Shown: positions 16,920-64,000 of the stretch, piece by piece
Position numbering within the stretch: the first letter of the stretch is position 1
Layout of the letters: each line of letters begins with the position of its first letter
NCBI GenBank assembly: GCA_016931995.1
Contig: JAFGDS010000059.1
Span: 1 to 64,000 of the forward strand
From: Pirellulales bacterium
Lineage (GTDB): Bacteria > Planctomycetota > Planctomycetia > Pirellulales > Thermoguttaceae
Direction: 5' to 3'
Length of the DNA stretch: 64,000 nucleotides
Translations under genes and position numbers: made by a program
The notes under the pieces: generated by a model
The model's database searches: none
What the model was told of the DNA's origin: nothing
The model's input: the letters and a program-made list of their open reading frames with translations, nothing else

Positions 16920-17039
16920 GCACCCAGAGCCGTTTGGGCAAGGTTGACCTCGCGCCGCCGATGTCTTGCCCCCTGTACACATGTGCGGTAAAATCCAGGA
17001 TTCGCCGACGTGGGCACCCCCCGGCCGGAACTGGAAGTC

Positions 17040-35574: not shown

Positions 35575-35660
35575 ATCCTCTTGGATAACGATACCCATTG
35601 GGCTCTCGTTCGGCATTCTCCATACCATGCGTGCTCTCCTTTTCCCGTGGAGACGGATTG

Positions 35661-44695: not shown

Positions 44696-45703
44696 ATGTT
44701 CGACATCGCCACGGAAAGGGCCGCGCCAGGATTTGCCATGCACGCTTCGCCCTCGAATGCCATAACCGGTCGGAAATCCCAGACGACGTTTGTCACGGCG
44801 TTTGCCCTGGTGGCGGTTCTCGCGGCCGTGGTGAATTGGGAGACGATGGCGTGGTTGGTGGGGATGTGGTGGCATTCCGCCGACTACACCCACGGGTTCT
44901 TCGTCATTCCGTTTGCTTGCCTTTTGTTGTGGGACCGGCGCGACATGCTCGCGGAGGTCGATTTGGAGGGCAGCCTCTGGTCGATCCCGTTTTTGGCGAT
45001 TGGCGGGGGCCTGGCGTGGTACGCGTCCTACGAATACCGACTGACTGGCGCCGCATTGGCCATGGTGCCGCTTCTTTTGGGCGTCGTGCTGTTGTTGGGA
45101 GGATGGAAGGCTCTTCAGTGGGCGTGGTCGGCGATCGTCTTTCTGGTGTTCATGGTGCCTCTGCCGGGAGCCGTCGCGGGGTTGCTCCGATTGAAGCTGC
45201 AGTTGTTCGGCACGCAGGTGAGCGTGTTCACGTTGCAGACGCTGGGAATGCCGGCCGTGGCCGAAGGAAATCTGATCATACTGCCCAACTCGCAGCCTTT
45301 GGAGGTGGCCGACGCTTGTAGCGGGATCCGGATGTTGATGTTGTTCTTCGCCGCGTGCATCGGAGCGGCGTTTTATTTGCGTCGCGAGATCATGCTCATC
45401 CGGGTGCTCATCGCCTTAAGCGCCATTCCCATCGCCATCATTTCGAACGTGGTGCGGATCACGGTGACGGCTTTTTTGCACCAGGCGGTGAGCCAGGCGC
45501 TTGCCGACCGGGTATTTCACGACTTGGCCGGCTGGTTCATGATGCCCTTGGCCATCGTGATCCTTTGGGCCGAGACGGCCTTGTTTACTCGATTGTTCAC
45601 GGCTCCCGAACGGGAGGCCCCGCTGGCGTTCGGCGTGGGGGCGCCTGCGGGCGCGAACCGAGCCGGCGCCCCATCGCGCCCTCGCGGCGACAACGCGCCC
45701 TAG
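44696..45703 (+). CDS. Exosortase (PEP-CTERM processing transpeptidase)
   Basis: This is a 335-residue polytopic membrane protein of the exosortase/EpsH family. The family is proposed to cut PEP-CTERM proteins at the membrane and transfer them to a surface acceptor. About eight transmembrane helices are visible. The catalytic set is Cys208 in VADACSGIRM, Arg254 in SNVVRITV and His275 in FHDLAGWF. The N-terminal ADYTHGFFVIPFACLLLWDR is also a family hallmark. ATG 44696 or ATG 44738 could be used; the first gives a longer cytosolic lead. It is the first gene of the polysaccharide locus and likely acts on the four PEP-CTERM proteins of this window. Confidence 0.95.
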   Translation: MFDIATERAAPGFAMHASPSNAITGRKSQTTFVTAFALVAVLAAVVNWETMAWLVGMWWHSADYTHGFFVIPFACLLLWDRRDMLAEVDLEGSLWSIPFLAIGGGLAWYASYEYRLTGAALAMVPLLLGVVLLLGGWKALQWAWSAIVFLVFMVPLPGAVAGLLRLKLQLFGTQVSVFTLQTLGMPAVAEGNLIILPNSQPLEVADACSGIRMLMLFFAACIGAAFYLRREIMLIRVLIALSAIPIAIISNVVRITVTAFLHQAVSQALADRVFHDLAGWFMMPLAIVILWAETALFTRLFTAPEREAPLAFGVGAPAGANRAGAPSRPRGDNAP

Positions 45704-45859
45704 GATTCGGGTTTTTCGCGGCCGGCCGCCCGCGGACGTTCGAACGCGGCCATCACCTCGGGAAGAGGACCTTATCTGACATCTACTCCGTACCGTGTAT
45801 TCGTTCTGAATGCGACTCCCGAAACCCGCACCCTAATCTGAGAAGTCGAGGAGAGGTTC

Positions 45860-48103
45860 ATGTCCGTCAAAGACGAAACGACGTCCCTGGAACGTGGCGC
45901 CAACGGTCAATCGTTGGTCGTGCAGCGCAACGCGCCGTTGGGGGGCCTTGACGCCGAATGGTCCATGCTGCCGCCGGCGCCGGCAATGGCTCAACGCGAT
46001 CCCTCGGCTTATCTGCACGCCATTCGCCGGCACTGGCTTCTGGGTTGCGTGCTCGGCGTGATCGCGGCGGTCGCCCTGGCCACGACGACCTGGTTCGCGC
46101 TGCCCCGGCACTACACCGCGACCGCCCTGATTAACGTCGCAATGTACACGAACAGCTTTACGGGCAGGGATCAGCGGTACCTTCCGCCGCAGGAGTACGA
46201 GAACTTCAAGGCGACGCAGGTGCAGCAGATCCGAAGCACCGGCGTGCTCAACGCCGCCCTGCGCGACGATCCCAAGATCACCATGCTCTCGATCTATCAG
46301 CGCGAGAAGGCCGACCCGATCACGTGGCTTCAGGACGAACTCGTGGTGGGCTACGCCGGCGACGGCGGGCTCATGATGGTGAGTCTGACGGACAACGATC
46401 CGAAGGAGGTCACCACGGTCGTTCAGGCCGTGGTCGACGCGTACGACCGCGTCGTGATCGAGGCCGAGGCGAAGGCCAAACGCGACCAATTGACCCAGCT
46501 CGGCCAGATTCTCGTCGAGCGGGAAGCGAAGGAGCGGGCCGTCCGCAGCCGCGTTCAGAACCTCTCCGAGCAAACCAAGGCCACGGACAGCCGAAGCATC
46601 AGCGTCGCGCAGCAGGTGGCCGTGCAGCGGCTGGGCGACTACCGCCGCGAGCACGTCCGCGTCCAGTTCGAGCTGCGCAACGCCCGGGCCGATCTCTCCG
46701 TCGCGGATGCCGCGCTGAAGCGGATCGACGACGATGAGACGGGCAGCTTCGCCGAATTCGAGATCGAGCAGCTCCTGTTGCGGGATCCGATCTACAATGA
46801 ATACAACAAGATGATATCCGGTCTCGGCATGGCCGTGGCCCAGACCGAGGCGGCGGCCCAGAAAGGCATCGACCGTCCCTTCCTGAAACGCCTCAAGGAG
46901 CAGCAGGAGGCCGCCCAGGCCGCCTTGGATGAGCGGGTCGAGGTCCTGCGAGAGATGATGAAGAAGGGCAAGCGGTCCGAATTGGACGAGGAGGCCGCCG
47001 GGCTGCGGGTGAAGGTCGCCATCCTGGAAGGCGACGAAAAGGTCCTTCGCGAGGAGGTCGCCGCGCAGGAGCGCGAGGTCGAGGAGCTGACGAGATCGTC
47101 CGTCGACTTCGAGATGGCTCTGGCGGAATTGGATAACATCTCGGCCACGCGGGCCAAGATCGCGGAGGAGCGCGAAGCGCTCGAAGTGGAAACCCGGGCT
47201 CCGGCGCGCATCGAAGTGAAGCAACCGGCGTTTGAGCCGATGAGCCACGATAATCCCGGCCTTATCATCGCCGTGACCGTGTTGGCGGGCGTGGCGGGGC
47301 TCGTGCTGCCGCTGGCGGGCATCGTCTTGTGGGACGTCCGGAAGCAGAGGATCAACTCGTCGGAGGACGTGGCGCACCGCCTGGGTCTGCCGGTGATCGG
47401 CTCCGTGCCCGTGATTCCCAGTCGAACGATCCGACGGCTTGGCTCGCCGACGAAGACGAGCCGGCAGTGGAACGTTCGGTTGACCGAGTCGATCGACGCC
47501 ATTGCGGCGAAGCTGTTGCGCAACGCGGCCATCGACGAAGACCGCGTCGTGCTGATCACCAGTGCCGTCAGCGGCGAGGGGAAGACGACGCTGGCCACGC
47601 AGATTGCGATGAGCCTTGCCCGCGCGGGGCGCCAGACGGTCCTCGTGGATTTCGACCTCCGGAGGCCGGCGATCGACAAGGCGTTTCAATTGCCCCTGCA
47701 GCCCGGCGTCAGCGAAGCGCTTTGCGGCGAGAGCGAGATCCACGATCTTGCCCAGGCGACGGGCACGAAGAACCTGTCGGTGATCACGGCGGGGCGCTGC
47801 GACCGGCACGCGCTGCAGGCTTTGGCCAACGGCATGGATCAGCGGATTCTGGACACGCTTCGGGCGGAGTTCGAGTTCGTGATCGTCGACGGCAGCCCGA
47901 TTCTGCCGGTGGCCGACTCGCGCTACGTCGCCCAGCACGTGGACTCCGTGGTGCTATCGGTCTTCCGCGACTACAGCCGCGCTCCGAAGGTGATGGCGGC
48001 CTGCGAGATTCTCGAGACGTTTGGCGTCCGCGACGTGGAAGCCGTGGTGACGAGTTCGAGCGAGGACGGATACGGCGTCATGGACAACGTGCCGCAGGAG
48101 TAG
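45860..48103 (+). CDS. Wzc/GumC-type chain-length regulator with BY-kinase domain
   Basis: This is a 747-residue inner-membrane protein controlling polysaccharide chain length and export. An N-terminal helix (about residues 57-78, LLGCVLGVIAAVALATTTWF) and a second near 475-495 (LIIAVTVLAGVAGLVLPLAG) bracket a periplasmic domain rich in coiled coil (about 190-450). The cytosolic kinase follows: Walker A SAVSGEGKTTLATQIA (about 567-582), Walker A' VLVDFDLRRPAID and Walker B VIVDGSPILPV. The C-terminus has only a single Tyr (EDGYGVMDN), not the usual Tyr cluster, so autophosphorylation control may be reduced. RBS GAGGAGAGG precedes the ATG. Confidence 0.93.
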   Translation: MSVKDETTSLERGANGQSLVVQRNAPLGGLDAEWSMLPPAPAMAQRDPSAYLHAIRRHWLLGCVLGVIAAVALATTTWFALPRHYTATALINVAMYTNSFTGRDQRYLPPQEYENFKATQVQQIRSTGVLNAALRDDPKITMLSIYQREKADPITWLQDELVVGYAGDGGLMMVSLTDNDPKEVTTVVQAVVDAYDRVVIEAEAKAKRDQLTQLGQILVEREAKERAVRSRVQNLSEQTKATDSRSISVAQQVAVQRLGDYRREHVRVQFELRNARADLSVADAALKRIDDDETGSFAEFEIEQLLLRDPIYNEYNKMISGLGMAVAQTEAAAQKGIDRPFLKRLKEQQEAAQAALDERVEVLREMMKKGKRSELDEEAAGLRVKVAILEGDEKVLREEVAAQEREVEELTRSSVDFEMALAELDNISATRAKIAEEREALEVETRAPARIEVKQPAFEPMSHDNPGLIIAVTVLAGVAGLVLPLAGIVLWDVRKQRINSSEDVAHRLGLPVIGSVPVIPSRTIRRLGSPTKTSRQWNVRLTESIDAIAAKLLRNAAIDEDRVVLITSAVSGEGKTTLATQIAMSLARAGRQTVLVDFDLRRPAIDKAFQLPLQPGVSEALCGESEIHDLAQATGTKNLSVITAGRCDRHALQALANGMDQRILDTLRAEFEFVIVDGSPILPVADSRYVAQHVDSVVLSVFRDYSRAPKVMAACEILETFGVRDVEAVVTSSSEDGYGVMDNVPQE

Positions 48104-48152
48104 GTCAACGAGGTTTGGGCTTCGTGCCCGGTGCGTGAATGATTTCGGGAGC

Positions 48153-48182
48153 GTCCCCGACTTCGCCCGGCGAAGCGGGGAC
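48153..48182. repeat. Hairpin between the kinase and initiating transferase genes
   Basis: GTCCCCGACTTCGCC (48153-48167) pairs with GGCGAAGCGGGGAC (48169-48182) with one bulge. There is no U-run. It is probably a GTCCCCG-type repeat that could stabilise or attenuate the transcript inside the operon. Confidence 0.7.
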
Positions 48183-48250
48183 CGTTCCTTTCGGCCAGCG
48201 CGGCCCATCCCATCGTGGAATAAGCACCCTCTGGATCGTCCTTGCTTGCC

Positions 48251-49960
48251 ATGGGTCCTCAATCCGAACCGACGATCTTCCTGGTTGCCTGCGCCGTGAG
48301 TCTGGCCCTGACGGGACTGATTCGCGAGATCGCTCCGCGGATCGGGTTGACGGACAACCCGGACGGGCGCCGGAAGCTGCACGGCCGGGCAATCCCGCTG
48401 GGCGGCGGCTTGGCCGTCTTCGTGACGACGGCCGTGATTCTCGGGTCTCTGTGGATCATTCCCTCGGGAAACGACGCCGCGGTGGCCGCGCCCGACGCCG
48501 CGGAACGCGTCGAGGAGTCGGGGGAGTCTTCGGACGCTGCCCCAGCCGAGGCGGATTCAGACGCGCCGGAGGCGGTCTACACCGACGTTCGCACGAAGCT
48601 TCGCGTGGGCTGCCCCAACTTGCCGGCGCTTCTGTTGGCCGGCCTCGTGATCGTGATCGTTGGCCTGATCGACGACTGCAAGGGGCTGCCCGGCAAACAG
48701 AAGCTGGTGGGCCAAATGGTCGCCGTCGCGATCCTATTGTTGGACGGGTTGTTGATCCGCCGCATCGAGCTTTTCGGAAGCTGCATCGACCTGTGGTGGT
48801 TCGCCTATCCGGTCACCCTCCTCTGGCTGTTGGGGGCCATCAATTCGCTGAATCTCCTGGACGGCATCGACGGTTTGGCCGCCATGCTGGGGATCATCCT
48901 GAGCTGCACGATCGCCGCCATGTCCGTGGTCACCGGAAACCACGGCGTGGCGATTATCGCCATGGTCTTTGCCGCGAGCCTGTTGGGATTTCTTCGGTTC
49001 AACTTCCCGCCGGCGTCGATCTTCCTCGGCGACACGGGAAGCATGTTGATCGGGCTCGTGGTGGGAGCTCTGGCGATCCAAGGATCGCTCAAGGGCGCCG
49101 GCACCGTCCTGTTGGCGGCGCCGCTGGCCGTTTGGACGCTTCCGTTCTTCGATTCGTTCGCGGCCATCCTCCGACGGAAGCTGACCGGCCAAAGCATCTA
49201 TGCCACCGATCGCGGCCACCTGCATCATCGCATGTTGGCCTTGCTGGGAAGCAATCGCAAGGTGCTCGGCTGGCTCGCCCTCTGCTGCGCGATCCTTTCC
49301 TTCGCCACGCTCGTCGGCTTGGTGCTCAGAGACGACCGGATCACCGTATTGACGTGCCTCTCGGTCGTCCTCATCTTCATCGCCACGGGCGTTTTTGGCC
49401 GCGTCGAGTTGATGCTGGTCGGCACGCAGTTGCGCAACGTCGGGCGGAGACTGGTCGCGCCGATCATCTGGCGAGGCCCCAGGGCCTGGCAGACGAGTGT
49501 CCGCCTGCAGGGTTCGCGGGAGTGGGACTTGCTTTGGACCACGTTCATCGAATCGGCCGACAAGCTCAGTCTGACCGACGTCCGCTTGGACGTGAACCTT
49601 CCGACGGCGCACGAGGCGTACCACGCCGCGTGGGAGCGCCCACGGCGTTCCAAGACCGAGTTCTCTTGGCGGGTGGAAGTCCCGTTGGTGATGGGTGGCT
49701 TTCCCGTGGGGCGAATCCGGATCGCGGGAGAGCGGAATGGACAGTCCGCCTGCCTCGACATCCAACAGCTCATGGAGCTTATCGAACCATTTGAATCCCG
49801 GCTTTGCACGTTGGCCGATTGGCGCCAATTGCGGCCGGATTCCGACGGGCAGGGTGAATCCTTGCCCGACACGCGCGGCAAGAACCACGGCGCGGGGTAC
49901 GTTGCCGGAGGCGGCCACGCGCCGCGGCCGCACGTTTCCGAGGGACCGCCGATTCCCTGA
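48251..49960 (+). CDS. WecA/TagO-type undecaprenyl-phosphate sugar-1-phosphate transferase
   Basis: This is a 569-residue polyprenyl-phosphate transferase of the MraY/WecA superfamily. It starts the lipid-linked polysaccharide by moving a sugar-1-phosphate, probably from UDP-GlcNAc, onto undecaprenyl phosphate. Motifs are KLHGRAIPLGGG, the catalytic GLIDDCKGLPGKQK, NLLDGIDGLAAMLG, FLGDTGSMLIG and HLHHRMLALLG; about ten helices lie in residues 1-380. An acidic loop (about 80-118) is inserted early. Residues about 385-569 form a soluble extension not found in WecA. ATG 48251 was chosen over a TTG three codons upstream. Confidence 0.92.
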   Translation: MGPQSEPTIFLVACAVSLALTGLIREIAPRIGLTDNPDGRRKLHGRAIPLGGGLAVFVTTAVILGSLWIIPSGNDAAVAAPDAAERVEESGESSDAAPAEADSDAPEAVYTDVRTKLRVGCPNLPALLLAGLVIVIVGLIDDCKGLPGKQKLVGQMVAVAILLLDGLLIRRIELFGSCIDLWWFAYPVTLLWLLGAINSLNLLDGIDGLAAMLGIILSCTIAAMSVVTGNHGVAIIAMVFAASLLGFLRFNFPPASIFLGDTGSMLIGLVVGALAIQGSLKGAGTVLLAAPLAVWTLPFFDSFAAILRRKLTGQSIYATDRGHLHHRMLALLGSNRKVLGWLALCCAILSFATLVGLVLRDDRITVLTCLSVVLIFIATGVFGRVELMLVGTQLRNVGRRLVAPIIWRGPRAWQTSVRLQGSREWDLLWTTFIESADKLSLTDVRLDVNLPTAHEAYHAAWERPRRSKTEFSWRVEVPLVMGGFPVGRIRIAGERNGQSACLDIQQLMELIEPFESRLCTLADWRQLRPDSDGQGESLPDTRGKNHGAGYVAGGGHAPRPHVSEGPPIP

Positions 49961-50077
49961 TGGGCGAAAGGATCGGCAAGCCACGGTGGATCGGCCGCCG
50001 CGGCGCCCCATTGGCAGCGCGTCCTTCCGCGGCATTGCCCGGCGAAGGCGCCACAATAATCTGGAGAACGCAACGCA

Positions 50078-50794
50078 ATGAGAGCGCTGGTGGTACGAAC
50101 GACGATCACCGTGGCTGTCGTGGTCGGGATAGGCATCGGAAGCCAGGTTTTGCTCGTGGCCAGCGGATCCAAAAAGGCCGTGGCGCCGCCCGAGCACACG
50201 CTGTCGTCGTTGCCGTTGGAGATTGGATCGTGGCGCGGCGAGGAGGTTCCCATCGCCGACGAGCGCAGGGAGGAAGCGATCGGCGCCGACGAGACGATCA
50301 ATCGACGCTATCGTAACGCGTCCGGCGACTCGATCTCGTTGCACGCCGCTTGCTTCGTGAAATTTGACCGATCGGTGCCCCATTCCCCCGACGTCTGTTA
50401 TCCGGGCAACGGCTACACGAAGATCACGGACAAGACGGTGGAGCTGCCTTGCAGCGAGGGCGCGCCGGGCCGCGCGAAGCTGGTCGCGTTTGAGATGAAC
50501 GGTCGCCGCGTCTACGTGCTGTTCTGGTTTCAGCTTGGGGATCAGATCTGCCTGGGGATTGACGACATGGCCGCCGCGCGACGGGAACTGCGACCGCGTT
50601 CGACGGAGTGGCCGTCGATCCTGAAGTTCCTTCTCGAAACGCCCATCGACGATCTGGAAGCGGACGAGGCGCGCCTTGTCGAGTTCGCCACCCGATTGCA
50701 CGAGAAGTCCAGGAATTTGCAGGGGACGTCGTATCTGAAGCCGGCTGCTTCGACAACGCCGAGTGACGCGTCAAACGGCGGCGTCCCGGACTGA
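50078..50794 (+). CDS. EpsI-family exosortase-associated protein
   Basis: This is a 238-residue single-pass protein. One N-terminal helix (TITVAVVVGIGIGSQVLLVA) is followed by an extracytoplasmic domain. The family block HSPDVCYPGNGYT (residues 102-114) is diagnostic of EpsI, which co-occurs with exosortases either fused or separate. Its biochemical role is not established; it may assist the exosortase or polysaccharide export. Here it is separate from the exosortase by two genes. A 15-nt gap to the flippase indicates shared transcription. Confidence 0.9.
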   Translation: MRALVVRTTITVAVVVGIGIGSQVLLVASGSKKAVAPPEHTLSSLPLEIGSWRGEEVPIADERREEAIGADETINRRYRNASGDSISLHAACFVKFDRSVPHSPDVCYPGNGYTKITDKTVELPCSEGAPGRAKLVAFEMNGRRVYVLFWFQLGDQICLGIDDMAAARRELRPRSTEWPSILKFLLETPIDDLEADEARLVEFATRLHEKSRNLQGTSYLKPAASTTPSDASNGGVPD

Positions 50795-50808
50795 GGCGCA
50801 GCAGGCCG

Positions 50809-52326
50809 ATGGATCTCTCTACGTCAACTGTCTCGTCGGAATCGCCGGCCGACGCCCCGGCGTCACGGACTCCCTCCGTGGCGCGGTCCGTTGCCAAGCT
50901 CGTGTCCGGCCGCACGGCGGCGACGCTCGTTACGGCCGTCTCGTTGCCCATTCTTGGACGTCTCTACGACGACCAGAGCATGGCCATTTTCGGAATCTTC
51001 AGCACCTTGGTTCTCTGCCTCCAACCCGTCAGTTGGGGATTCTGCTACAGTCAGGCCATGCCGCTAGCCAGAACGCTCTCGCAGCGGCGCGATCTTTTCG
51101 TGCTCTCGCTCTTGCTGGGCGGCGCCTCCGTTTTCGTCTTGGGATTGGCGACAATGCTCGCCGGGCCGGCCGTCGTCGCGGCGCTGGGAAAACCAGAACT
51201 GGCTCCTTACCTGTTCTACCTTCCTCTGCTTTGTCTCGGCACAACCATCGGCGGCGTGACCTCGATGACGCTGAATTGCGAACGGCAGTTCGGCCTGCTG
51301 GCCCTGAGGGCGGTTACCCAGGACGTGGTGCGTCGAGGCTTCCAGATCGCCAGCGGCCTGCTCGCGCTGGCCAGGCCGGCCCATGGGCTGCTCGTGGGAG
51401 GTCTCCTGGGCACGTACTGCGATTCGTTCGCCTTCTCCTTCAAGGCGGTCCGGTCGCTTTGGCGCCGCGGCGAACAGCCGCTTTCTTGGCGCGGCCTCAA
51501 GGAGGCGGCCTACCGCTTTCGGTCGTTTCCGATGTTCCGGTTCTGGAACGACACGGCGACGGCGTGCGCGGGCAATTTCCCGCTGCTTTTTCTGGGCGCG
51601 TTCGCGCCACTGAAGGTCTCCGGCACGTTCTGGATGGCCAAGACCCTGCTTATTCTGCCGGTGCGCCTGTTCACGATCTCCAGTCGCGAGGTGTTCTACG
51701 TGGAGGTGGCGCAGCGGTTGGGCCGCGGCGAGTCGACCGGCCGTATCACCGAGGACTTGCTGCGATGGCTGAACGTGCTGATGGCCTTCCCGCTGACTCT
51801 GGTTCTCGTATTGGGGCCGTTGCTTTTCGAGGTTGTCGTCGGCCCCCAGTGGCACGAGGCAGGCGTGTACGCCCAGATTCTCGTTCCCTGGATCGTCTTG
51901 TCCAGCATCAGCCAGCCGCTCTCCGCCATGTTCGACGCCACGAACCGGCTCGACGAAGGGCTACTTTTCAACGTCACGTTGCTGGCGTCTCAATCGGCCG
52001 CGATGGCGGCGGGCTTGTTTCTGGTCGGCCCGCGCACGGCGCTGGCCTGCTGCACCGTCGTCACGGTTGTCGTTTCGACGTCCATTCTGGCGCGGACTCT
52101 CCGCTTGGCCGGCGCGGGCCGGCGGCGCGTGGCCCGGTCTCTGGTGTCGTCCTACGGCGAGGTCGGGCTGTTGCTGGCGCCGGCGGGGTTGCTGTATTGG
52201 TGCGGCCCATGGCGTTGGCTCGCTCTGGCCGCGGCGGGCGCGGCGGGCGCCGTCTACACGGTCATTCTGGATCGGCGTCTGCCGCAGATCCGGCGGTCCA
52301 TTGTCGCCCGGCTGCGGCGTGGCTAA
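50809..52326 (+). CDS. Oligosaccharide flippase (Wzx-type)
   Basis: This is a 505-residue polytopic protein of the MOP/polysaccharide-exporter superfamily with about 12-14 helices. It should flip lipid-linked repeat units across the inner membrane. ATG 50809 starts a Ser/Ala-rich lead (about 35 residues) and the first hydrophobic helix begins near residue 42 (TAATLVTAVSLPILGRLYDD). Features like FGIFSTL, MPLARTLSQRRDL and ALGKPELAPYLFYLPL fit the family. It lies directly downstream of epsI and upstream of a Wzy-like gene after a 335-nt gap. Confidence 0.88.
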   Translation: MDLSTSTVSSESPADAPASRTPSVARSVAKLVSGRTAATLVTAVSLPILGRLYDDQSMAIFGIFSTLVLCLQPVSWGFCYSQAMPLARTLSQRRDLFVLSLLLGGASVFVLGLATMLAGPAVVAALGKPELAPYLFYLPLLCLGTTIGGVTSMTLNCERQFGLLALRAVTQDVVRRGFQIASGLLALARPAHGLLVGGLLGTYCDSFAFSFKAVRSLWRRGEQPLSWRGLKEAAYRFRSFPMFRFWNDTATACAGNFPLLFLGAFAPLKVSGTFWMAKTLLILPVRLFTISSREVFYVEVAQRLGRGESTGRITEDLLRWLNVLMAFPLTLVLVLGPLLFEVVVGPQWHEAGVYAQILVPWIVLSSISQPLSAMFDATNRLDEGLLFNVTLLASQSAAMAAGLFLVGPRTALACCTVVTVVVSTSILARTLRLAGAGRRRVARSLVSSYGEVGLLLAPAGLLYWCGPWRWLALAAAGAAGAVYTVILDRRLPQIRRSIVARLRRG

Positions 52327-52661
52327 TTGCACGAAGGGGCCGAGGACGATGGGTTTTCACTTGGTGGAACAGCCAGTAAAGTCGCGTCAATGCGGTCAAG
52401 CCCTAGAAACCAAAGAAACCGACGACCTTCCCCGCCCGGTTCCGGCGGGGCTTCCGACGGGACGGCTTGGGAGGCCTTTATTCACTATATAATGGAGAGT
52501 ACGAGGACTACGACGGGATCGCATGACGCGGATCGGTCGCCCACGCGCCGAGAACCGGCCGAGAGACGCCACTGGCCGAAACGCGCTTGCGCGCAAGACG
52601 AACCCGGTGAGGCTGCGTCGGAGAAGCCTTTAGTAGTCCCAGTTTCCATGGGAATATCGCG
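52327..52661. other. 335-nt gap between flippase and polymerase genes
   Basis: No gene is seen. It contains the candidate promoter at 52468-52494 and so may split the locus into two transcription units. Confidence 0.5.
52468..52494 (+). promoter_or_regulatory. Candidate sigma70-type promoter for the second half of the locus
   Basis: TTGGGA, a 15-nt spacer and a perfect TATAAT. The spacer is a little short. It lies 168 nt before the polymerase start, in the only long gap inside the biosynthesis cluster. Confidence 0.35.
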
Positions 52662-54095: not shown

Positions 54096-54145
54096 GAGAA
54101 CATGGAACGATTGATGCCGCGAGGTAAACAAGGCGCGTCGTCGGC

Positions 54146-55324: not shown

Positions 55325-55400
55325 CCCGCCCACGCCGCGGGGCGATTCACGCGAACGCAAGGTCGAGGAGTTGCCGAAGCGCCAACGCGCGAGGACGATC

Positions 55401-56294
55401 ATGACGAAAGTGCCCGTCACCGTCATCATGCTCACTCTCAACGAGGAGTTCAACCTCCCGGGCGCCATGGAGAACGTCCAAGACTGGGCGGAAGAGGTCT
55501 TCATTGTCGATAGCTGCAGCACGGACCGCACCGTCGACATCGCGATGGAGAAGGGCGTGGGAATCGTGCAGCGCCCCTTCACGAACTTCGGCGACCAATG
55601 GAACTTCGCGCTGGAGCGCCTGCCCATCAAGACGCCTTGGACGTTCAAACTGGATCCCGACGAGCGACTCTCGCCGGAACTCAAAAGCGAGATCGCGGAT
55701 CTCTTGGCGGGCGAGCCCGAGCACGACGGCTTCTGGATGGATCGGCGGCTCTGGTTCATGGGCAAACCGCTCCACGTGTTGGCCCCGGTGTTGCGGCTGT
55801 GGAAAACGGGAAAGTGCCGCTTCTCGGACGTTCTGGTCAACGAACATCCCCTGATCGACGGCTCCGTGGGAGGACTCCGGGGCCTTATCGAGCATTTCGA
55901 CAGCCCGGACCTGCACCATTGGTGGGACAAACAGAACCGGTACACGACCATGGAGGCGATCATGAAGGCCCGGGGAGCCGCTCCGTCTGCCCAACCGAGG
56001 CTGTTCGGATCGCGTCTGGAACGACGCGTCTTCTGGAAGAAGGTCTTTTACCGCCTTCCGTTTCGCTATCAGTTGCAGTGGATTCACGAGATGCTCGTCC
56101 GCGGCGCGTGGCGCGATGGTCCGCAGGGGCGACAATGGGCGCGCCTGCGCATCGAAGTGCGGCGCATGATTGAATTGAAGGTGAAGGAAATGCGGGCGAC
56201 GGGGCGTATTCCCGAGATCCCCAAGGCGCCCCGCGGAGGGTTCGACCCGAGGATCCTGGCGTCTCCCCTGCAGAAACAGGTGCTTCCCCAATGA
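55401..56294 (+). CDS. Glycosyltransferase, GT2 family (WaaE/KdtX-like)
   Basis: This is a 297-residue GT-A enzyme. ATG 55401 begins exactly on the family N-terminus VTVIMLTLNEEFNLPGAME; an upstream extension overlaps the GT4 gene. The SCSTDRT block, the DPDER metal site (LDPDERLSPEL) and GFWMDRRLWFMGKPL resemble GT2 enzymes related to WaaE. There is no membrane helix, so it acts at the cytoplasmic face. It probably adds one sugar to the repeat unit. RBS support is weak (GAGGACGATC). Confidence 0.9.
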   Translation: MTKVPVTVIMLTLNEEFNLPGAMENVQDWAEEVFIVDSCSTDRTVDIAMEKGVGIVQRPFTNFGDQWNFALERLPIKTPWTFKLDPDERLSPELKSEIADLLAGEPEHDGFWMDRRLWFMGKPLHVLAPVLRLWKTGKCRFSDVLVNEHPLIDGSVGGLRGLIEHFDSPDLHHWWDKQNRYTTMEAIMKARGAAPSAQPRLFGSRLERRVFWKKVFYRLPFRYQLQWIHEMLVRGAWRDGPQGRQWARLRIEVRRMIELKVKEMRATGRIPEIPKAPRGGFDPRILASPLQKQVLPQ

Positions 56295-56466
56295 CGATGG
56301 CGGCGTTTCTCGGCGACTCGGCCAAGGGGCAGACGCGGCGCGGAAATGCCGTTAACATGCTTTGATGGGATTTGCCGGAGTGCACGGCGATTTCGCCCCG
56401 GCCGGAAGACTCCGGTCGATCCCGAAACGCCAATTCGGTAGGTTGCGTTAGAGAGGGCGGCCGACG

Positions 56467-57900
56467 ATGTTGCGCCGGTTGATTCCATTCAGTCGCTTGA
56501 AGGCGTGGTACGAGGGAAGCCCAACGTGGCTCAAGGCGGCCTACGCGGCCGTCCCGTTTTCGCTCCGCATGGGGCGGGTTTACCGCCATACCCAACGTCT
56601 GATCGAGAAGACCGACTTCGCCAGCCGGGAGGAACTCGACCACATGCAGGCCGAGTCGCTGGGACGCCTTATCGAACACGCCTACCGGCACGTGCCACAC
56701 TATCGGCAGGTGATGCGGCAGAGGGGACTGGGACCGAACGATATTCGGTGTCCCGCGGATCTCGCCAAAATGCCCCTCGTCTCCAAGTCGCGGATGCAGC
56801 TCCATATCGAACAGTTCGCGGCAACCGGCGGACTCCGCGAACGCGTCTTTTGGGACAACACGGGCGGGTCCTCGGGAACTCCGTTTCGGTTTCTCGCCCT
56901 GAATAGCACGTATCCTGTCGAGATGGCCTACATTCTGGCGCAATGGAAACGCGTGGGCTATTCGCCCCGCGAGCGCCGGCTCACGTTGCGAGGACGCGTG
57001 GTCGGCGCCGGGCACGGAGAGGCGCGATGGCAGTACAACCCGATCTACAACGAGCTGCGCGCGTCGTCCTACCACATCGACGCCGACGCAATCGCCCGGC
57101 TCATGCCCGAATTGAAGCGTTTTCGCCCCACCTTCGTTTATGGGTATCCTTCCGCCGTCGCGCTGTTCCTCCGAATCCTGGACGAGAACCACGTGGAGTT
57201 CCCGTGTCGGGTCAAGGGAGTCTTGTGCGGCTCGGAACCGCTCTTCGATTATCAACGGGAGCTGATCCGCCGCGTGCTGGGGTGCCGGGCATACTCGTGG
57301 TACGGCCAAAGCGAGCGCGTCCTCCTCGCCGGCGAATGCGAGCGCACGACGGCCTATCACAGCTTCCCCCTCTACGGAATCGCCGAGCTCGTCGACGACG
57401 CCGGCGATCCGATCACCACGCCCGGCATGGAAGGCGAAATCGTCGCCACGTCGCTGCACAATCTGGCGATGCCCTTCATTCGCTACCGCACGGGCGACCG
57501 AGGCGTGTTCGACACGAACGATACTTGTATTTGCGGACGAAACCACCAACGCATCAAAAAGGTGGTCGGCCGGACCCAGGACTACGTCTACACGCGGGCT
57601 GGAAGAGCCGTTCCCGTCACCGCCATCGTTTTCGGGCAACACTTCCGAGCATTCGCGCGCATGTTCGCCATGCAACTGGCGCAGGATACTCCTGGCGAGG
57701 TGACCGTCCGGATTGTCAGGGGGCCCGAATTCACGGACGCCGACGAGAAGGAAATCCGCGATACAATGGAAAACGCGGTGGATCGCGAGATCCACGTCCG
57801 CGTTGAATACCCAAAGGAGCTTTCGAGGACCGATTCGGGCAAGACCCCGTTCGTGATTCAGGCGATCGCGAAGGAAAGCCTGCCTCCTCGTTCGCAATAA
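56467..57900 (+). CDS. PaaK/CapK-like AMP-forming ligase
   Basis: This is a 477-residue member of the phenylacetate-CoA ligase-like adenylate-forming family found in capsule clusters (CapK). The nucleotide-binding loop is WDNTGGSSGTPFRF (about residues 134-147). The central region has VYGYPSAVALFLRIL and GVLCGSEPLFDYQRELI, then the YGQSER motif, DTNDTCICGRNHQRIKKVVG and a C-terminal domain. The cysteines in CICG are as in CapK-type proteins. The acid it activates is unknown; acyl or amino-acid decoration of the polysaccharide is one guess. An RBS (GAGAGGGCGG) precedes the ATG. Confidence 0.88.
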   Translation: MLRRLIPFSRLKAWYEGSPTWLKAAYAAVPFSLRMGRVYRHTQRLIEKTDFASREELDHMQAESLGRLIEHAYRHVPHYRQVMRQRGLGPNDIRCPADLAKMPLVSKSRMQLHIEQFAATGGLRERVFWDNTGGSSGTPFRFLALNSTYPVEMAYILAQWKRVGYSPRERRLTLRGRVVGAGHGEARWQYNPIYNELRASSYHIDADAIARLMPELKRFRPTFVYGYPSAVALFLRILDENHVEFPCRVKGVLCGSEPLFDYQRELIRRVLGCRAYSWYGQSERVLLAGECERTTAYHSFPLYGIAELVDDAGDPITTPGMEGEIVATSLHNLAMPFIRYRTGDRGVFDTNDTCICGRNHQRIKKVVGRTQDYVYTRAGRAVPVTAIVFGQHFRAFARMFAMQLAQDTPGEVTVRIVRGPEFTDADEKEIRDTMENAVDREIHVRVEYPKELSRTDSGKTPFVIQAIAKESLPPRSQ

Positions 57901-57985
57901 ACAACGTGACAATCGCACCACCTTGGTTCTGAAAGACCGCTTCAGAATTCGTGACACCCGCGCAAAGGGGATCAGGTCGCCTCCC

Positions 57986-60178
57986 ATGAAACAAATGCTC
58001 CAAAACCTCAAGTCCGGCAAAATCGCCGTGGCCGACGTGCCCAGGCCGCTGTTGCTGCCCGGCGGAATCGTCGTCCGCACGCGCAAGTCGCTCATCTCGG
58101 CCGGCACCGAGCGCACCGCGCTCCAATTGGGCAAGAAGAGCCTGCTGGGCAAGGCCAAGGAACGGCCCGACCTCGTTCGCAAGGTGCTCGACAAGGTCCG
58201 TCGCGACGGCATCCTGGCCACCTTCAAGGCCGTGCGCGACAAGCTCGATAGCGACATGCCGCTGGGCTACAGCAGTTGCGGCGACGTGGTCGAGGTCGGC
58301 GCCCGCGCCCGCGAGTTCCAGGTCGGCCAGCGCGTCGCCTGCGCCGGAGCCAAATACGCCAACCACGCCGAGGTGAATTTCATCCCCCGCCTCTTGGCCG
58401 TGCCGGTGCCCGAGGGCGTTTCGACCGAGGCCGCCGCCTACGCCACGGTCGGCACCATCGCCCTGCAGGGCGTCCGCCTGGCCGATCTCCGCGTGGGTGA
58501 AACGGCCGTCGTGCTGGGTCTGGGGCTCATCGGGCAGTTGACCGCGCAGATCCTCAAGGCGGCGGGCTGCCGCGTCGCCGCGCTCGATCTGGCCCAAGGG
58601 CGCGTCGATTTGGCCGCCGCCCACGGCGCCGAGCTGGCGCTGACGCTCGACGGCGAGAAGACCGAACGCCAGGTGCTCGACTTCACGCGCGGACGCGGGG
58701 CCGACGCGATCCTGATCACCGCCGCCACGTCGAGCAACGAGCCGGTCGAGCAGGCCGCCCGCCTGGCCCGCGACCGCGCCCGCGTCATCATGGTCGGCGT
58801 GACCGGCATGAACATCCCGCGGACGCCCTACTTCAAAAAAGAGCTGACCTTCATGGTCTCGCGGAGCTACGGCCCGGGCCGCTACGATCCGGAGTACGAA
58901 GAGCACGGCCACGACTACCCGGTGGGCCACGTCCGCTGGACGGAGAACCGCAACATCGAGGCCTTTCTCGATATGGTGGCCGCCGGCGCGGTCCGGCCCG
59001 AAGCGCTCACCACGCATCGCTATCCGATCGCCGAGGCCGAGAAAGCCTTTGAACTGATTCTGCGCAACGCGGAGCCCTATCTGGGCGTCGTGCTGGAGTA
59101 TCCGGAGGCCGACGGCGGGCCGGCGGCGGTCGAGGCGGCGCGGATCGAGCTTCCCAGGACAACCGCGCGGGCGACCGGCGACGCGGTGGGCGTGTCGTTC
59201 GTGGGCGCGGGTGGATTCGCCCGATCGTTCCACCTACCCAACCTGGCCAAGCAGCCCCGCGCGCGGCTGCGGGGGATCATGGACGCCTCGGGCGTGGCCG
59301 CGCGATCGGCCGGCGAGAAGTTCGGCTTTGCCTTCTGCTGCTCGCAAGAAGAGGAGGTGCTCGACGACGCCCAGACGCACGTGGTCTTCCTCACCACGCC
59401 GCATTCGCAACACGCCGACGGCGTCTGCCGGGCGCTGGCCGCCGATAAGGCCGTCTTCGTCGAGAAGCCGCTGGCCTTGGACGTGGCGGGCTTGCGCCGG
59501 ATACACAAGACGCTCGCGGAGCATCCGCAAACCCTCATGGTCGGATTCAACCGGCGATTCGCGCCCTTGGCGGTCGAAATGAAGGCGCATCTGACGGGGC
59601 GCGGTCCCCTGAGCGTCCAATACCGCTGCAACGCCGGCCCCGCGCCCGCCGAGCATTGGATCGCCGATCCGGCCGAGGGCGGGCGGATCCTCGGCGAGGC
59701 GTGCCACTTCTTCGACTTCTTCGCGTTCCTGACGGACGCCGCGCCGGCAACGGTCTTCGCCGCGGCGCCGCGGACCGGCTCGACCGACGACGCGGCCGTC
59801 ACGGTCGCCTACGAGGACGGATCGGTTTGCCAATTGGTCTACGCCACGACCGGCCCTCCGTCGTACAGCAAGGAGCGCGTCGAGGCTTTCGCCGGCGGCG
59901 CGGCCGGGGTGATCGACGACTTCCGCGTGCTCGCGCTATGCGGCGGCGCGGCGCGGGGTAAGCCGCGCAAGCTCATGCAGGCCGACAAGGGGCACGCCCA
60001 GGAAGTGAAGGCCCTGCTCGATGCGCTTGCCGAGGGCGGCCCAGCGCCCATCCCCGTCGCGTCGCTCTTCGACACAACGCTGGTCGGCATCGCCGCCATC
60101 CAGAGCATCCAGCGCGGCGAGCCCGTGGTCATCGCCGCTCTGCGCCAGGAAGTGGCCGCCGAAGACACAACGACGTGA
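57986..60178 (+). CDS. Fused zinc-type dehydrogenase and Gfo/Idh/MocA oxidoreductase
   Basis: This is a 730-residue bi-domain oxidoreductase. Residues about 1-365 are an MDR-type (alcohol dehydrogenase-like) domain with SAGTERTALQLGKKSLLGKA, GYSSCGDVVEVG and the nucleotide motif VLGLGLIGQLTAQILKAAG. Residues about 385-730 are a Gfo/Idh/MocA domain with VGAGGFARSFHLPNL, FVEKPLALD and MVGFNRRFAP. Such fusions are a known class in polysaccharide clusters, next to heparinase II/III genes. Both halves could oxidise a sugar nucleotide or a cyclitol; the substrate is unknown. The start ATG 57986 was chosen for the family N-terminus MKQMLQNLKSGKI. The TGA is overlapped by the next gene's GTG. Confidence 0.93.
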   Translation: MKQMLQNLKSGKIAVADVPRPLLLPGGIVVRTRKSLISAGTERTALQLGKKSLLGKAKERPDLVRKVLDKVRRDGILATFKAVRDKLDSDMPLGYSSCGDVVEVGARAREFQVGQRVACAGAKYANHAEVNFIPRLLAVPVPEGVSTEAAAYATVGTIALQGVRLADLRVGETAVVLGLGLIGQLTAQILKAAGCRVAALDLAQGRVDLAAAHGAELALTLDGEKTERQVLDFTRGRGADAILITAATSSNEPVEQAARLARDRARVIMVGVTGMNIPRTPYFKKELTFMVSRSYGPGRYDPEYEEHGHDYPVGHVRWTENRNIEAFLDMVAAGAVRPEALTTHRYPIAEAEKAFELILRNAEPYLGVVLEYPEADGGPAAVEAARIELPRTTARATGDAVGVSFVGAGGFARSFHLPNLAKQPRARLRGIMDASGVAARSAGEKFGFAFCCSQEEEVLDDAQTHVVFLTTPHSQHADGVCRALAADKAVFVEKPLALDVAGLRRIHKTLAEHPQTLMVGFNRRFAPLAVEMKAHLTGRGPLSVQYRCNAGPAPAEHWIADPAEGGRILGEACHFFDFFAFLTDAAPATVFAAAPRTGSTDDAAVTVAYEDGSVCQLVYATTGPPSYSKERVEAFAGGAAGVIDDFRVLALCGGAARGKPRKLMQADKGHAQEVKALLDALAEGGPAPIPVASLFDTTLVGIAAIQSIQRGEPVVIAALRQEVAAEDTTT

Positions 60179-61932
60179 ACCTTTCCCGCTATCTCCGCAC
60201 GTACCGCACGCTCCGGCGCCTGCGCCCGTCGCAGGTCTATTGGCGGTTGCGCTACCAACGCGAGCGCGCGAGACCGGCTCGGCCGATCCGCGTGCCGTTG
60301 ACGTTGTGCCCGCGGGCCGGGTTTTCCGAAGTGCCGGGCGTTCACGATCCCAGCGACGTCGATGAACAACTCGCCGATCGGCTGGACCGCGGCGAGTTCG
60401 AGCACCTTGCCGAGCGCCGCGCGCTCGGAAAAAGCCAAACCGACTGGCTCTTGGGCGAACAGGCGTCCGGCCGGCTCTGGGCCATCACGCTGCACTACCA
60501 CCAGTGGGCGTGGGAACTGGCCGTGCTGGCGCGGCGAGGAGGGCCGGCGGCGGATCGGGCCGGAGCCCTCTTGCGCCACTACCTCGGCGACTGGATCACG
60601 CGATGCGACCTGACCGGGCCGGGCAGCCGCGAGTTGGCCTGGAACGTCTACGCCATCGCCACGCGGCTGGGTTGGTGGTGCCGGCTCTGGCACGTTCTCG
60701 GCCCCGAGGGCCGACGCGATTGGGGCCCGCTGGAACGACTTTTTCTCGAAAGTCTCTTCAGCCAGGCCGTGTATCTCGACGGCCATTTGGAATACGACCT
60801 TCGGGCGAACCACCTGCTGCGCGACGCGGTGGGGCTCGCCTGGGCCGGTCGATTCCTGGAGGGGCCCTCGGCGCGGCGGTGGCTCGATCGGGCCACGCGC
60901 CTGGCCCTGGCCCAGGCCGACGAGCAGGTGCTGGCCGACGGCGGCCATTTCGAGCGGTCGCCCATGTACCATCTGCACGCCATGGAGGACTTTCTTCAGT
61001 TGGCCTTCCTCGTCGAACGACCGGCCGCCCGAGAGCATCTCCGGCGGACGTGGTTGCGGATGGCCAGCTTTTTGACCTGGGCGCGCCACCCGGATGGACG
61101 GATCCCGCTCCTGAACGACGCGGCCCTCAATGGCGCGTGCTCGCCGGGAATGATGCTCTCCACCGGCGGCGCGGCCTTCGGCCAAGCGTTCGCAACGGAT
61201 CTGCCTCGCGGGGGCAGATGCTTTTCCGACGTCGGCCTGGTCGTCTGGCACGGCGAGCCGTGGACCGTCTTCTTCGACGCGGGACCCGTGGGCGTCGATT
61301 ACCAGCCCGGCCACGCCCACGCGGACACTCTCTCGATTGAAGTCTCCTATCGCGGCCAACGGCTGTTTGTCGATCCCGGCACGTTCGGCTACGACCGCGA
61401 CGACCGCCGCCGCTACGATCGCGCCACCGCCTCGCACAACACGGTCGCGATCGACGGCGTCGATTCGAGCGAAGTGTGGCACGTCTTCCGCGTCGGCCGG
61501 CGCGCCGTGCCCGTGGACATCGAGACGGAGATCCGCCCGGACGCACTCCGCGCCGCCGCCAGCCACACCGGCTATGACCACCTGCCGGGTCGCCCAAGAC
61601 ACCGGCGCGTTGTCGCGGTCTCCGACGACGACGCACTTGTCCTGAACGATTCATTTCGGGCGCGCGGCCGGCATGCGATTGCCGGCGCTCTGCTTCTCGC
61701 CCCTGGCTGGGAGGCAAAAGCCGCGGAAAGCGGCTGGATTCTGTCCCGCGGAAACATTGCGTTGCGGGTAGCCTTTGATGGCGGCGGCGGATGGGAATTG
61801 TCGCAGTCGGCGCAACCCTGCCATCCGGGCTTTGGAGTGGAGGAGATGACCACGCGCCTGCAATGGCGCGCCGTGCTAGCTTTGCCGTGCGAAACGGTCC
61901 TTCGGATCGAGCCGTTCGCCCCGGACGAATAG
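60175..61932 (+). CDS. Heparinase II/III family protein
   Basis: This is a 585-residue protein whose N-terminal half is an alpha/alpha toroid (LHYHQWAWELAVLARRGG, WNVYAIATRLGWWCRLWHVL, YDLRANHLLRDAVGLAWAGRFL). Its C-terminal half is a beta domain with PGHAHADTLSIEVSYRGQRL and VDPGTFGYD, the usual heparinase II/III hallmark. No signal peptide is seen, which is odd for a lyase but typical of copies coded in biosynthesis clusters. GTG 60175 overlaps the preceding TGA (GTGA). It may trim, modify or degrade the uronate-containing polymer. A lyase role is inferred from the family only. Confidence 0.9.
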   Translation: MNLSRYLRTYRTLRRLRPSQVYWRLRYQRERARPARPIRVPLTLCPRAGFSEVPGVHDPSDVDEQLADRLDRGEFEHLAERRALGKSQTDWLLGEQASGRLWAITLHYHQWAWELAVLARRGGPAADRAGALLRHYLGDWITRCDLTGPGSRELAWNVYAIATRLGWWCRLWHVLGPEGRRDWGPLERLFLESLFSQAVYLDGHLEYDLRANHLLRDAVGLAWAGRFLEGPSARRWLDRATRLALAQADEQVLADGGHFERSPMYHLHAMEDFLQLAFLVERPAAREHLRRTWLRMASFLTWARHPDGRIPLLNDAALNGACSPGMMLSTGGAAFGQAFATDLPRGGRCFSDVGLVVWHGEPWTVFFDAGPVGVDYQPGHAHADTLSIEVSYRGQRLFVDPGTFGYDRDDRRRYDRATASHNTVAIDGVDSSEVWHVFRVGRRAVPVDIETEIRPDALRAAASHTGYDHLPGRPRHRRVVAVSDDDALVLNDSFRARGRHAIAGALLLAPGWEAKAAESGWILSRGNIALRVAFDGGGGWELSQSAQPCHPGFGVEEMTTRLQWRAVLALPCETVLRIEPFAPDE

Positions 61933-61946
61933 AAGAGGTCTGCCCC

Positions 61947-63245
61947 GTGCGCATTCTCTACGTTTCGCAATACTTCCCGCCCGAGATGGGCGCTCCGTCC
62001 GCCCGCGTGTACGACATGGCGAGGAACTGGGTCGCCCAAGGGCACGAGGTGACCGTGCTGACGGCGTTCGCGCATCACCCCGTCGGCGTGAAGGCGCCCG
62101 AAGACCGCGGCGTCATCACCCGGCGCGAGACCGTCGACGGCATCGACGTGGTTCGGACCTACGTCTACGCCGCGCCGAACCGCGGGATCGCCAGACGCAT
62201 GCTCTCGTATGCCTCGTTCATGATGTCGGCCACGGCGATCGGATTCTTCCGAGTGCGCCGACCGGACGTGGTGATTGCCACGTCGCCGCAACTGCTCTGC
62301 GGCGTCGCCGGATATCTGCTGGCGTGCCTCCTGCGGCGTCCGTTCGTGTTTGAAGTCCGCGATCTTTGGCCCGAATCCATTCTGGCCACGGCCGTCGTCC
62401 AGCGCGAGAACGCGTTCATCCGCGCGCTCAAGGCCGTCGCCCGCCACCTGTACCGCCGCTGCGACCGGATCGTCGCGGTGGGCGAGGGCTACGCGACGGG
62501 CATCCATGCGCTCTACGGCATCGATCCGGGAAAGATGAGCATCATCCACAACGGAATCGACGCGTCGCTGTTTCGGCCCGGCCCGCGCGACAACGACGTG
62601 CGGCGCGAGTACGGTTGGGGCGACAAGTTCGTGGCCCTCTACCTGGGCACGCACGGCCTGGCTCACGGCCTGGAGAGCGTCTTGCGCGCCGCGCGCACGA
62701 TGCGAGACGACCCAAACACGTTGTTCGTCCTCGTTGGCGAAGGCGCGGAGAAGGACCGGCTCAAAGCGCTGGCGGCCGAATGGGGCCTCCCCAACGTCCA
62801 GTTCATCGACCAGCAGCCGCGCCGCCGCGTCGTGGACTTTTACGCCGCCTGCGACGTCGGAGTCGTCTGTCTCCGCGACGCCCCGCGATTCCAGGAGGTC
62901 CTTCCCTCCAAGATCTTCGAGTATTTCGGCATGGAAAGGCCAATCGTGCTCGGCGTGTCGGGCGAGGCCGCCAAGCTCGTCCGGCGCGCGGACGCCGGCG
63001 TGTGCGTGCCGCCGGAGGACTCCGACGCCCTCGTGGCCGCGATCCAACAACTTGCCGACGCCCCCCGGCAACTCGAGGAAATGGGACGCCGCGGCCGGGC
63101 GTTCGTCCTCAAACACTTCAACCGCGCGGAGTTGGCGGCCAAGTACGTGCGCGTCCTCGATGCCGTGATCCAGCGAGGCGAGGCGCCGGCCGAATCGGCA
63201 TTCACCATCGGACGGCCGGCTTGCGGCAACGGTCCAGACGGATGA
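61947..63245 (+). CDS. Glycosyltransferase, GT4 family (WbuB-like)
   Basis: This is a 432-residue GT-B enzyme. GTG 61947 has an AGAAGAGG RBS at 8 nt and gives the family N-terminus RILYVSQYFPPEMGAPSARV; longer ATG starts would overlap the heparinase gene. Also present are EVRDLWPESILATAVV and IHNGIDASLFRP. VGEGAEKDRLKALAAEWGLPNV and the acceptor/donor end block PSKIFEYFGMERPIVLGVSG fit WbuB-like GT4 transferases. It likely adds an N-acetylated sugar to the lipid-linked unit. The end overlaps an in-frame ATG of the next gene (ATGA). Confidence 0.92.
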   Translation: MRILYVSQYFPPEMGAPSARVYDMARNWVAQGHEVTVLTAFAHHPVGVKAPEDRGVITRRETVDGIDVVRTYVYAAPNRGIARRMLSYASFMMSATAIGFFRVRRPDVVIATSPQLLCGVAGYLLACLLRRPFVFEVRDLWPESILATAVVQRENAFIRALKAVARHLYRRCDRIVAVGEGYATGIHALYGIDPGKMSIIHNGIDASLFRPGPRDNDVRREYGWGDKFVALYLGTHGLAHGLESVLRAARTMRDDPNTLFVLVGEGAEKDRLKALAAEWGLPNVQFIDQQPRRRVVDFYAACDVGVVCLRDAPRFQEVLPSKIFEYFGMERPIVLGVSGEAAKLVRRADAGVCVPPEDSDALVAAIQQLADAPRQLEEMGRRGRAFVLKHFNRAELAAKYVRVLDAVIQRGEAPAESAFTIGRPACGNGPDG

Positions 63246-63286
63246 CAATGGAGCGTCCGGACTGGCCCATTTCACCAAGACAATCC

Positions 63287-64000
63287 ATGGCAAGAGAACA
63301 CACCGTGACCCATCCGCGTTTCGCCTGCATCGTCGGGGCCCGTCCCAACTTCATGAAGATGGCCCCGTTGCTCCGCGCGCTCGGGGCGCATCCGGGCGTC
63401 GAAACCGTGTTGGTTCACACCGGCCAGCACTACGACAAAAACCTGTCCGACGTCTTCTTCGAAGAACTGGAAATGAAACGGCCGGACGTGAGCCTCGATG
63501 TGGGCTCCGGCTCGCACGCCCAACAGACCGCCCGCGTGCTCGAACGTTTTGAAGAGGTCCTGCAAAACGCGGCGGCCGAGGGCAAGCCGTTCAATCGGGT
63601 CATCGTGGTCGGCGACGTGAACTCGACCATGGCCACCACGCTGGCCGCCGTGAAGCTCGGCGTGCCCGTGGCCCACGTCGAGGCCGGTCTGCGGAGCTTC
63701 GACCGAACCATGCCCGAGGAGATCAACCGCATCCTGACCGACGCCGTGGCCGATCTGCTGTTCGTCTCCGAGCCGGCCGGGATGGAGAATCTCCGCAACG
63801 AGGGCCACCGGGAGGAAGAACTCAAGCTGGTCGGCAACGTGATGATCGACACGCTCCTGACGCTCCTGCCCAAGGCGCGAAGCCGCGACACGCTCGCGCG
63901 GCTGGGTGTCGCGCCGGGCGGGTACGGTCTGGTCACGCTGCACCGGCCGGCCAACGTCGATCGGCCCGAGACGCTTGGCCCCATGCTCGACGTGCTCGCC
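63287..64000 (+). CDS. wecB: UDP-N-acetylglucosamine 2-epimerase, partial (cut by window end)
   Basis: The first 238 residues of a non-hydrolysing UDP-GlcNAc 2-epimerase, making UDP-ManNAc. The frame stays open to the window end. Family blocks are CIVGARPNFMKMAPLLRAL, LVHTGQHYDKNLSDVFFEEL, VVGDVNSTMATTLAAVKLGV, HVEAGLRSFDRTMPEEINR and GNVMIDTLL. ATG 63287 is preferred, but in-frame ATG 63242 overlaps the GT4 stop (ATGA) and GTG 63305 is also possible. ManNAc-type sugars in the repeat unit are implied. Confidence 0.93.
   Translation, partial: MAREHTVTHPRFACIVGARPNFMKMAPLLRALGAHPGVETVLVHTGQHYDKNLSDVFFEELEMKRPDVSLDVGSGSHAQQTARVLERFEEVLQNAAAEGKPFNRVIVVGDVNSTMATTLAAVKLGVPVAHVEAGLRSFDRTMPEEINRILTDAVADLLFVSEPAGMENLRNEGHREEELKLVGNVMIDTLLTLLPKARSRDTLARLGVAPGGYGLVTLHRPANVDRPETLGPMLDVLA

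Follow-up and report, generated by a model that had tools for sequence, protein, structure and literature searches.

Two exosortase lineages and two types of PEP-CTERM tail in a Pirellulales genome

Results and Discussion

A Pirellulales bacterium of the Thermoguttaceae carries two exosortases of separate lineages together with two types of PEP-CTERM tail, and the new element is the evidence that these co-resident lineages go with different tails. We lean towards the view that two parallel exosortase-tag-polymer systems operate in this cell, one in which the lineage called W below serves classical PEP-CTERM tails and one in which the lineage called C serves tails with a tryptophan six residues after the PEP motif. 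Much about the choice of targets by exosortases is still open, and several of these enzymes are present in many genomes; two lineages and two tails in one genome, set apart by one conspicuous residue, offer a direct test of specificity. The window, that is, the whole stretch of DNA analysed (64,000 nucleotides), covers positions 1-64,000 of contig C100 (77,467 bases) in a genome of 5.43 Mb and 153 contigs. The host genus is represented by one genome in our comparison collection, and the closest relatives of the window exosortase are from Pirellulales, Blastopirellula and Thermoguttaceae.

An exosortase heads a polysaccharide locus

From position 44696 onwards all family-matched genes of the locus lie on the + strand, and an intact exosortase gene of the EpsH family and lineage W (44696-45703) comes first, in agreement with the first-pass annotation, which had placed an exosortase at the head of a polysaccharide locus. 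The protein matched PF09721 (E 2.7e-58, 197.8 bits, cut-off 25.7) and TIGR02602 (153.4 bits, cut-off 105.55). The three EpsH motifs given in the accessible text of Haft 2006 (C-x-G, N-x-x-R and H-x-x-x-G; PMC1569441) are all present, as CSG at 208, NVVR at 251 (N251/R254) and HDLAG at 275, and C208, R254 and H275 were invariant in a nine-row exosortase alignment. No named exosortase subtype model scored over its cut-off for this protein; on the XrtA model TIGR03109 (cut-off 208), neither the window exosortase (148.2 bits) nor the second exosortase of the genome, on contig C7 (154.5 bits), reached the threshold.

The next gene (45860-48103, +) encodes a Wzz plus BY-kinase-like chain-length protein. 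Its earlier designation as a chain-length kinase is supported by an AAA_31 match, a weak Wzz match and the Walker A, A' and B motifs, all kept, but not by the C-terminus, where the last 30 residues hold a single tyrosine in place of the tyrosine cluster of BY-kinases. A WecA-like polyprenyl-phosphate sugar-phosphate transferase for initiation (48242-49960, +; PF00953, E 1.1e-39) and EpsI (DUF3485; 50078-50794, +; PF11984, E 3.2e-21) follow, so that two genes, the Wzc-like and the WecA-like one, indeed stand between the exosortase and EpsI. Further along the + strand are a Wzx-type flippase (50809-52326; PF13440, 28.7 bits, cut-off 23), the polymerase-like protein discussed below, a GT4-type glycosyltransferase (54146-55324; PF00534/PF13439), a GT2-type glycosyltransferase (55251-56294; PF00535, E 2.6e-8), a PaaK-like adenylate-forming enzyme (56467-57900; PF00501, AMP-binding, under cut-off, and PaaK-like NCBIfam models, none over its cut-off, the lowest E being 5e-37), a fusion of alcohol dehydrogenase and GFO/IDH/MocA domains (57923-60178; PF00107 and PF01408), a heparinase II/III-like protein (60175-61932; PF07940, E 9.4e-43), a second GT4-type glycosyltransferase (61791-63245; PF00534, E 1.5e-22; WcaI-like, under cut-off) and the first part of the UDP-GlcNAc 2-epimerase WecB (63275-64000; TIGR00236, 307 bits, cut-off 210), which ends near contig position 64414. 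RmlA (contig 64671-65573) lies beyond the window end.

The initiating transferase, the flippase and the three glycosyltransferases of the earlier description were thus all recovered by family matches. Its wording of a full Wzx/Wzy locus suits the Wzx protein but goes too far for the whole: WecB and RmlA extend beyond the window and no outer-membrane exporter (Poly_export, Wza/OPX, PF02563) matched on C100 in a profile search of the genome, where such matches were found on C121, C140, C44, C148, C60 and C103, with another under cut-off on C48. Scanning the locus for promoters and terminators gave one promoter-like site, compared with 2.6 in shuffled sequences, which tells little.

The protein at 52662-54095 (+) is likely a Wzy/WaaL-like polymerase or ligase, judging from its predicted fold. 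No Pfam or NCBIfam model matched it at E<=1. Its AlphaFold model (mean pLDDT 86.8, from 25 sequences) returned nothing at E<=0.001 in Foldseek, where the best match was WaaL (E 0.21, probability 0.92). A second structural comparison gave six rows with at least 240 aligned residues at Z 6.9-7.8, namely two FtsW complexes, one RodA-PBP2, two peptidoglycan synthase entries, which we take to be RodA, and WaaL. The earlier name of polymerase is therefore backed by a predicted fold like that of the FtsW/RodA/WaaL-type membrane glycosyltransferases but not by any sequence family, and since Z values below 8 may reflect merely a common arrangement, the Wzy/WaaL identity is not proven. The family is present in 26 of the 196 genomes of the order, and R243, K319 and R406 are invariant in 25 rows.

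Taken as a whole, this is an ordinary exosortase-polysaccharide locus and a member of known systems. Polysaccharide loci with exosortases have been on record since 2006, planctomycetes included (Haft 2006, PMC1569441, accessible text). The window locus shares with the EpsH/PEP-CTERM system described there the three motifs, EpsI, a chain-length protein and glycosyltransferases, and the genome shares with it the scattering of PEP-CTERM proteins; planctomycetes are named there as PEP-CTERM-positive. It differs in that EpsI is two genes away from the exosortase, the initiator is of WecA type and a second exosortase of another lineage is present. The same text reports that disruption of EpsH in Methylobacillus left methanolan production unaffected.

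PEP-CTERM genes in the window and across the order

Four genes of the window encode proteins that end in PEP, a hydrophobic stretch and a basic end. Three of these tails are classical: that of an FGE-sulfatase-domain protein (26073-27095, +; PF07589, 17.6 bits, under the cut-off of 20.7) and those of two further PEP-CTERM proteins (33682-35574, +; TIGR02595, 21.2 bits, cut-off 16; and 35598-37517, +; TIGR02595, 26.6 bits, and PF07589, 27.1 bits). The fourth, in a DNRLRE/CBM96 protein (16011-16709, - strand), is of the Trp type (VPEPAALAIWSLLG...RRHKRAA) and was found by the tail scan and the Trp-tail profile. All four PEP-CTERM genes previously listed thus have tripartite tails, but only two of the four exceed the TIGR02595 cut-off, one exceeds that of PF07589 and one is of the other type. 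They all lie outside the locus, and a tripartite-tail scan of the window found no cargo-like tail gene inside it.

The first-pass annotation had argued that four PEP-CTERM genes so close by make a functional link between protein sorting and polymer export likely. This argument is weak. The genome has 83 scattered matches over the Pfam cut-off (110 PF07589 matches in all), and with that many genome-wide the four window genes are no strong sign. At a density of 83-110 matches in 5.43 Mb, two genome-search matches in the window have P 0.26-0.37, and enrichment was rejected as evidence for the link; even four genes give P 0.02-0.04, with a tandem pair among them.

Better support for the link comes from co-occurrence. 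Among the 196 genomes of the order, 154 have both an exosortase and PF07589 matches, 9 an exosortase only, 8 PEP-CTERM only and 25 neither (Fisher p 1.8e-17, a test that, like the Mann-Whitney tests below, ignores the shared ancestry of the genomes, many of which are incomplete assemblies). In the bacterium's own family (n=36) the corresponding numbers are 26, 1, 1 and 8. A lack of co-occurrence in close relatives, which had been named as the finding that would speak against the link, is thus not what we see. A connection with polymer export itself is suggested solely by gene order. Five genomes have 16 to at least 41 PEP-CTERM matches and gave no exosortase match, also on a repeat search; assembly gaps probably account for this.

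A second exosortase locus of another lineage

The genome encodes one further exosortase, on contig C7, in a run that reads exosortase, Wzc, a 1516-residue PrsT-like TPR protein, EpsI, a bacterial sugar transferase, an XrtA-type deacetylase and an stp1 glycosyltransferase. The deacetylase (TIGR03006) and the glycosyltransferase (TIGR03087) score over the cut-offs of these XrtA-system models, while the PrsT-like TPR and EpsB-like proteins stay under theirs. The C7 locus therefore resembles the XrtA system of NCBIfam in these companions, which the window locus lacks, although neither exosortase passes the XrtA cut-off.

In exosortase trees of 72 and of 132 rows (the larger drawn from 299 matches in the order), the window exosortase falls in clade W, with M as its sister, and the C7 exosortase in a separate clade, C; every match could be classified in 80 of the 163 exosortase-positive genomes. 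Companion genes follow these clades. Near the 31 W rows, Wzc was found in 29, EpsI in 26 and WecA in 14, whereas WecA was near none of the 50 M rows or 37 C rows. TPR genes were near 32 of the 37 C rows and two of the W rows, and near none of the M rows. Six relatives keep the order exosortase-Wzc-WecA-EpsI, which makes the split between EpsI and the exosortase a feature of the clade. The genes 3' of EpsI vary among relatives, and only the WecB-like protein recurs of the later proteins of the window, directly after EpsI in four of those six.

Two side observations concern the companions. The Wzc-like proteins of the W and M lineages retain Walker A, A' and B and have few C-terminal tyrosines, the median in the last 30 residues being 2 for W (n=26) and 1 for M (n=45), compared with 4 for C (n=35). 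Open frames of 1739-1794 residues with C-lineage exosortases also occur, at the loci L077 (1583-6814, -) and L078 (4124-9430, +) and in the genomes G006, G099, G178 and G058; at L077 and L078 the reading frame runs on from the exosortase into a TPR region that resembles the C-locus PrsT-like protein, and EpsI adjoins. This fusion points to a direct partnership, and no description of it was found in the accessible text of PMC1569441 or PMC9850573.

Lineages W and M go with classical tails

Exactly one exosortase match was found in 68 genomes, of which 38 are M-only, 12 C-only, 8 W-only and 10 others. What was counted here is profile matches, of which some proteins yield two, and this leaves a few one-protein genomes outside the set; identical rows had been removed before the tree was built, and one M and two W genomes were restored by hand for this comparison. 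Classical PEP-CTERM matches were counted up to 41 per genome, anything higher being entered as at least 41. The M-only genomes have 0 to at least 41 classical matches, with 5 or more in 36 of the 38. The values for the C-only genomes are 0, 0, 0, 0, 0, 1, 2, 2, 4, 16, 21 and at least 41, that is, 5 or more in three and 0-4 in nine (Mann-Whitney p 1.7e-4 against M-only). The W-only genomes have 0, 1, 1, 3, 3, 5, 23 and 33, the other single-exosortase genomes 0-38, and all seven genomes with exactly one W and one C exosortase, our own included, have 14 to at least 41.

These numbers fit W and M as the enzymes of classical PEP-CTERM proteins and C as not, with six PEP-poor W-only genomes (0-5 matches) as the exception, and these six group together in a single, weakly supported subclade of the tree (0.577). 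The split among the W-only genomes means that W alone is no guarantee of classical tails. The proposal that the window exosortase is not a PEP-CTERM enzyme, some of its carriers being PEP-poor, was overturned by the subtype profile, as far as the part of the clade on the window's side is concerned.

The same six genomes are part of the case for the opposite assignment, in which the C7 exosortase sorts the classical PEP-CTERM proteins and the window exosortase serves few or other targets. So is the fact that the companions that take their name from the XrtA/PEP-CTERM system, over or under cut-off, are at C7 and not at the window locus. This assignment is, however, unlikely, as nine of the 12 C-only genomes have 0-4 classical matches, 23 and 33 such matches occur in two of the W-only genomes, and beside C exosortases Trp tails far outnumber classical ones.

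A tail with a conserved tryptophan goes with lineage C

In the tail scan, most tripartite tails beside C exosortases had a tryptophan six residues after PEP, with a consensus of roughly [VI]PEP[AS]xxx[VI]W[SG]xLG. Eight seed tails, of which six come from genes next to C exosortases, went into a profile, and because of this origin the seed genomes (7) or seed matches were left out of the tests. The profile found matches in 87 of the 196 genomes. Among non-seed genomes, 39 of the 48 with C had a Trp-tail match, against 41 of the 141 without C (p 2.5e-10); the 55 C genomes were chosen by eye from bit scores plus the tree. Trp-tail matches are absent from nine of these 55 and present in 41 genomes with no detected C exosortase. 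Counted by tails, the M-only genomes have 29 Trp-tail and at least 1051 classical matches, and the C-only genomes 37 and at least 87.

Exceptions on both sides, together with the relatedness of the genomes and the fragmented state of many, would be expected if both exosortases read both tails and the associations came from shared ancestry and incomplete genomes. We consider this doubtful, because the contrast persists in the classical-rich subset: among non-seed genomes with at least 20 classical matches, Trp-tail matches occur in 24 of 27 with C and in 27 of 60 without (Mann-Whitney p 1e-7). Gene proximity also argues against it, 11 non-seed Trp-tail matches in eight genomes lying within 15 kb of a C exosortase where 0.8 would be expected, among the matches listed; in this comparison the distance limit was set after the list had been viewed, the 154 rows on the list were estimated visually, and G094, among the eight genomes, had also given a seed.

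The genome studied here has 15 Trp-tail matches, and all 13 of those listed outside the window have the tryptophan at +6. Among the 14 listed, only one is also among the 110 PF07589 matches. Ten of these proteins were compared with the tail models, and none scored over the cut-off of any NCBIfam tail model or matched PF07589 at E<=0.01. The Trp tail is missed by current Pfam and NCBIfam models, and such tails add a class of surface proteins overlooked by automatic annotation. PEPxxWA-CTERM (NF035944) is likewise a PEP-type tail with a conserved tryptophan, but judging by its name that residue is nearer to PEP, and our proteins that list this model score between 16.9 and 21.9 bits (cut-off 35). 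In the open-licence literature we found no paper on PEPxxWA-CTERM, on the Trp tail or on such an exosortase pair in planctomycetes.

Counting against the pairing of tails with lineages, two genomes have W-clade exosortases with TPR and sugar-transferase neighbours that adjoin a Trp tail. In the genome studied here, a Trp-tail protein (L266, C121:13000-16000) adjoins the best-scoring Poly_export (OPX) match.

A proposed model of two tail-specific systems

Under the reading that we prefer, with W serving classical tails and C serving Trp tails, the window locus would make, flip and polymerise a lipid-linked surface polysaccharide. The window exosortase, as a Cys-Arg-His enzyme, would work on the outer face of the inner membrane and clip the C-terminal anchor off classical PEP-CTERM proteins, which would thereby pass into the extracellular polymer layer. 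The C7 exosortase, of the other lineage, most likely reads the tail with tryptophan six residues after PEP. What the data show directly are the genes and their conserved order, the two lineages and two tail types, and their co-distribution and proximity; cleavage, the pairing of enzyme with tail and any attachment to the polymer are our inference. In the accessible text of the sources concerned, a Nostoc crtB deletion study (PMC12188702) bears on the mechanism and was counted for this explanation; work on floc formation and PEP-CTERM in Aquincola, a review that covers ArtA active-site residues, a rhombosortase paper and two planctomycete papers bear on it as well.

Put more broadly, Pirellulales cells may have two exosortase systems told apart by tail, W/M with classical tails and C, with its XrtA-like locus and PrsT-type TPR protein, with the Trp tail that the models miss; the label of XrtA/PEP-CTERM system would then name the wrong tag for the C companions. 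We regard the case for this broader statement as evenly balanced. That the window exosortase instead acts mainly on the product of its own locus, polymer-linked or a single dedicated protein, with PEP-CTERM sorting incidental, is very improbable: the enzyme does keep Wzc and EpsI beside it where PEP-CTERM matches are few, but the locus has no cargo-like tail gene and exosortases co-occur with PEP-CTERM proteins across the order.

Other features of the contig

A single open frame of 2345 residues at 17010-24047 (+) is possibly a double UvrA, which we presume from its size. Just 3' of the locus, contig C100 65789-72672 (L074 5789-10408 and 12049-12672) encodes a 1540-residue TPR protein with sub-threshold similarity to PrsT, a Ser/Thr kinase and an Rce1-like CAAX protease; EpsH-CAAX fusions are mentioned in the accessible text of Haft 2006 (PMC1569441).
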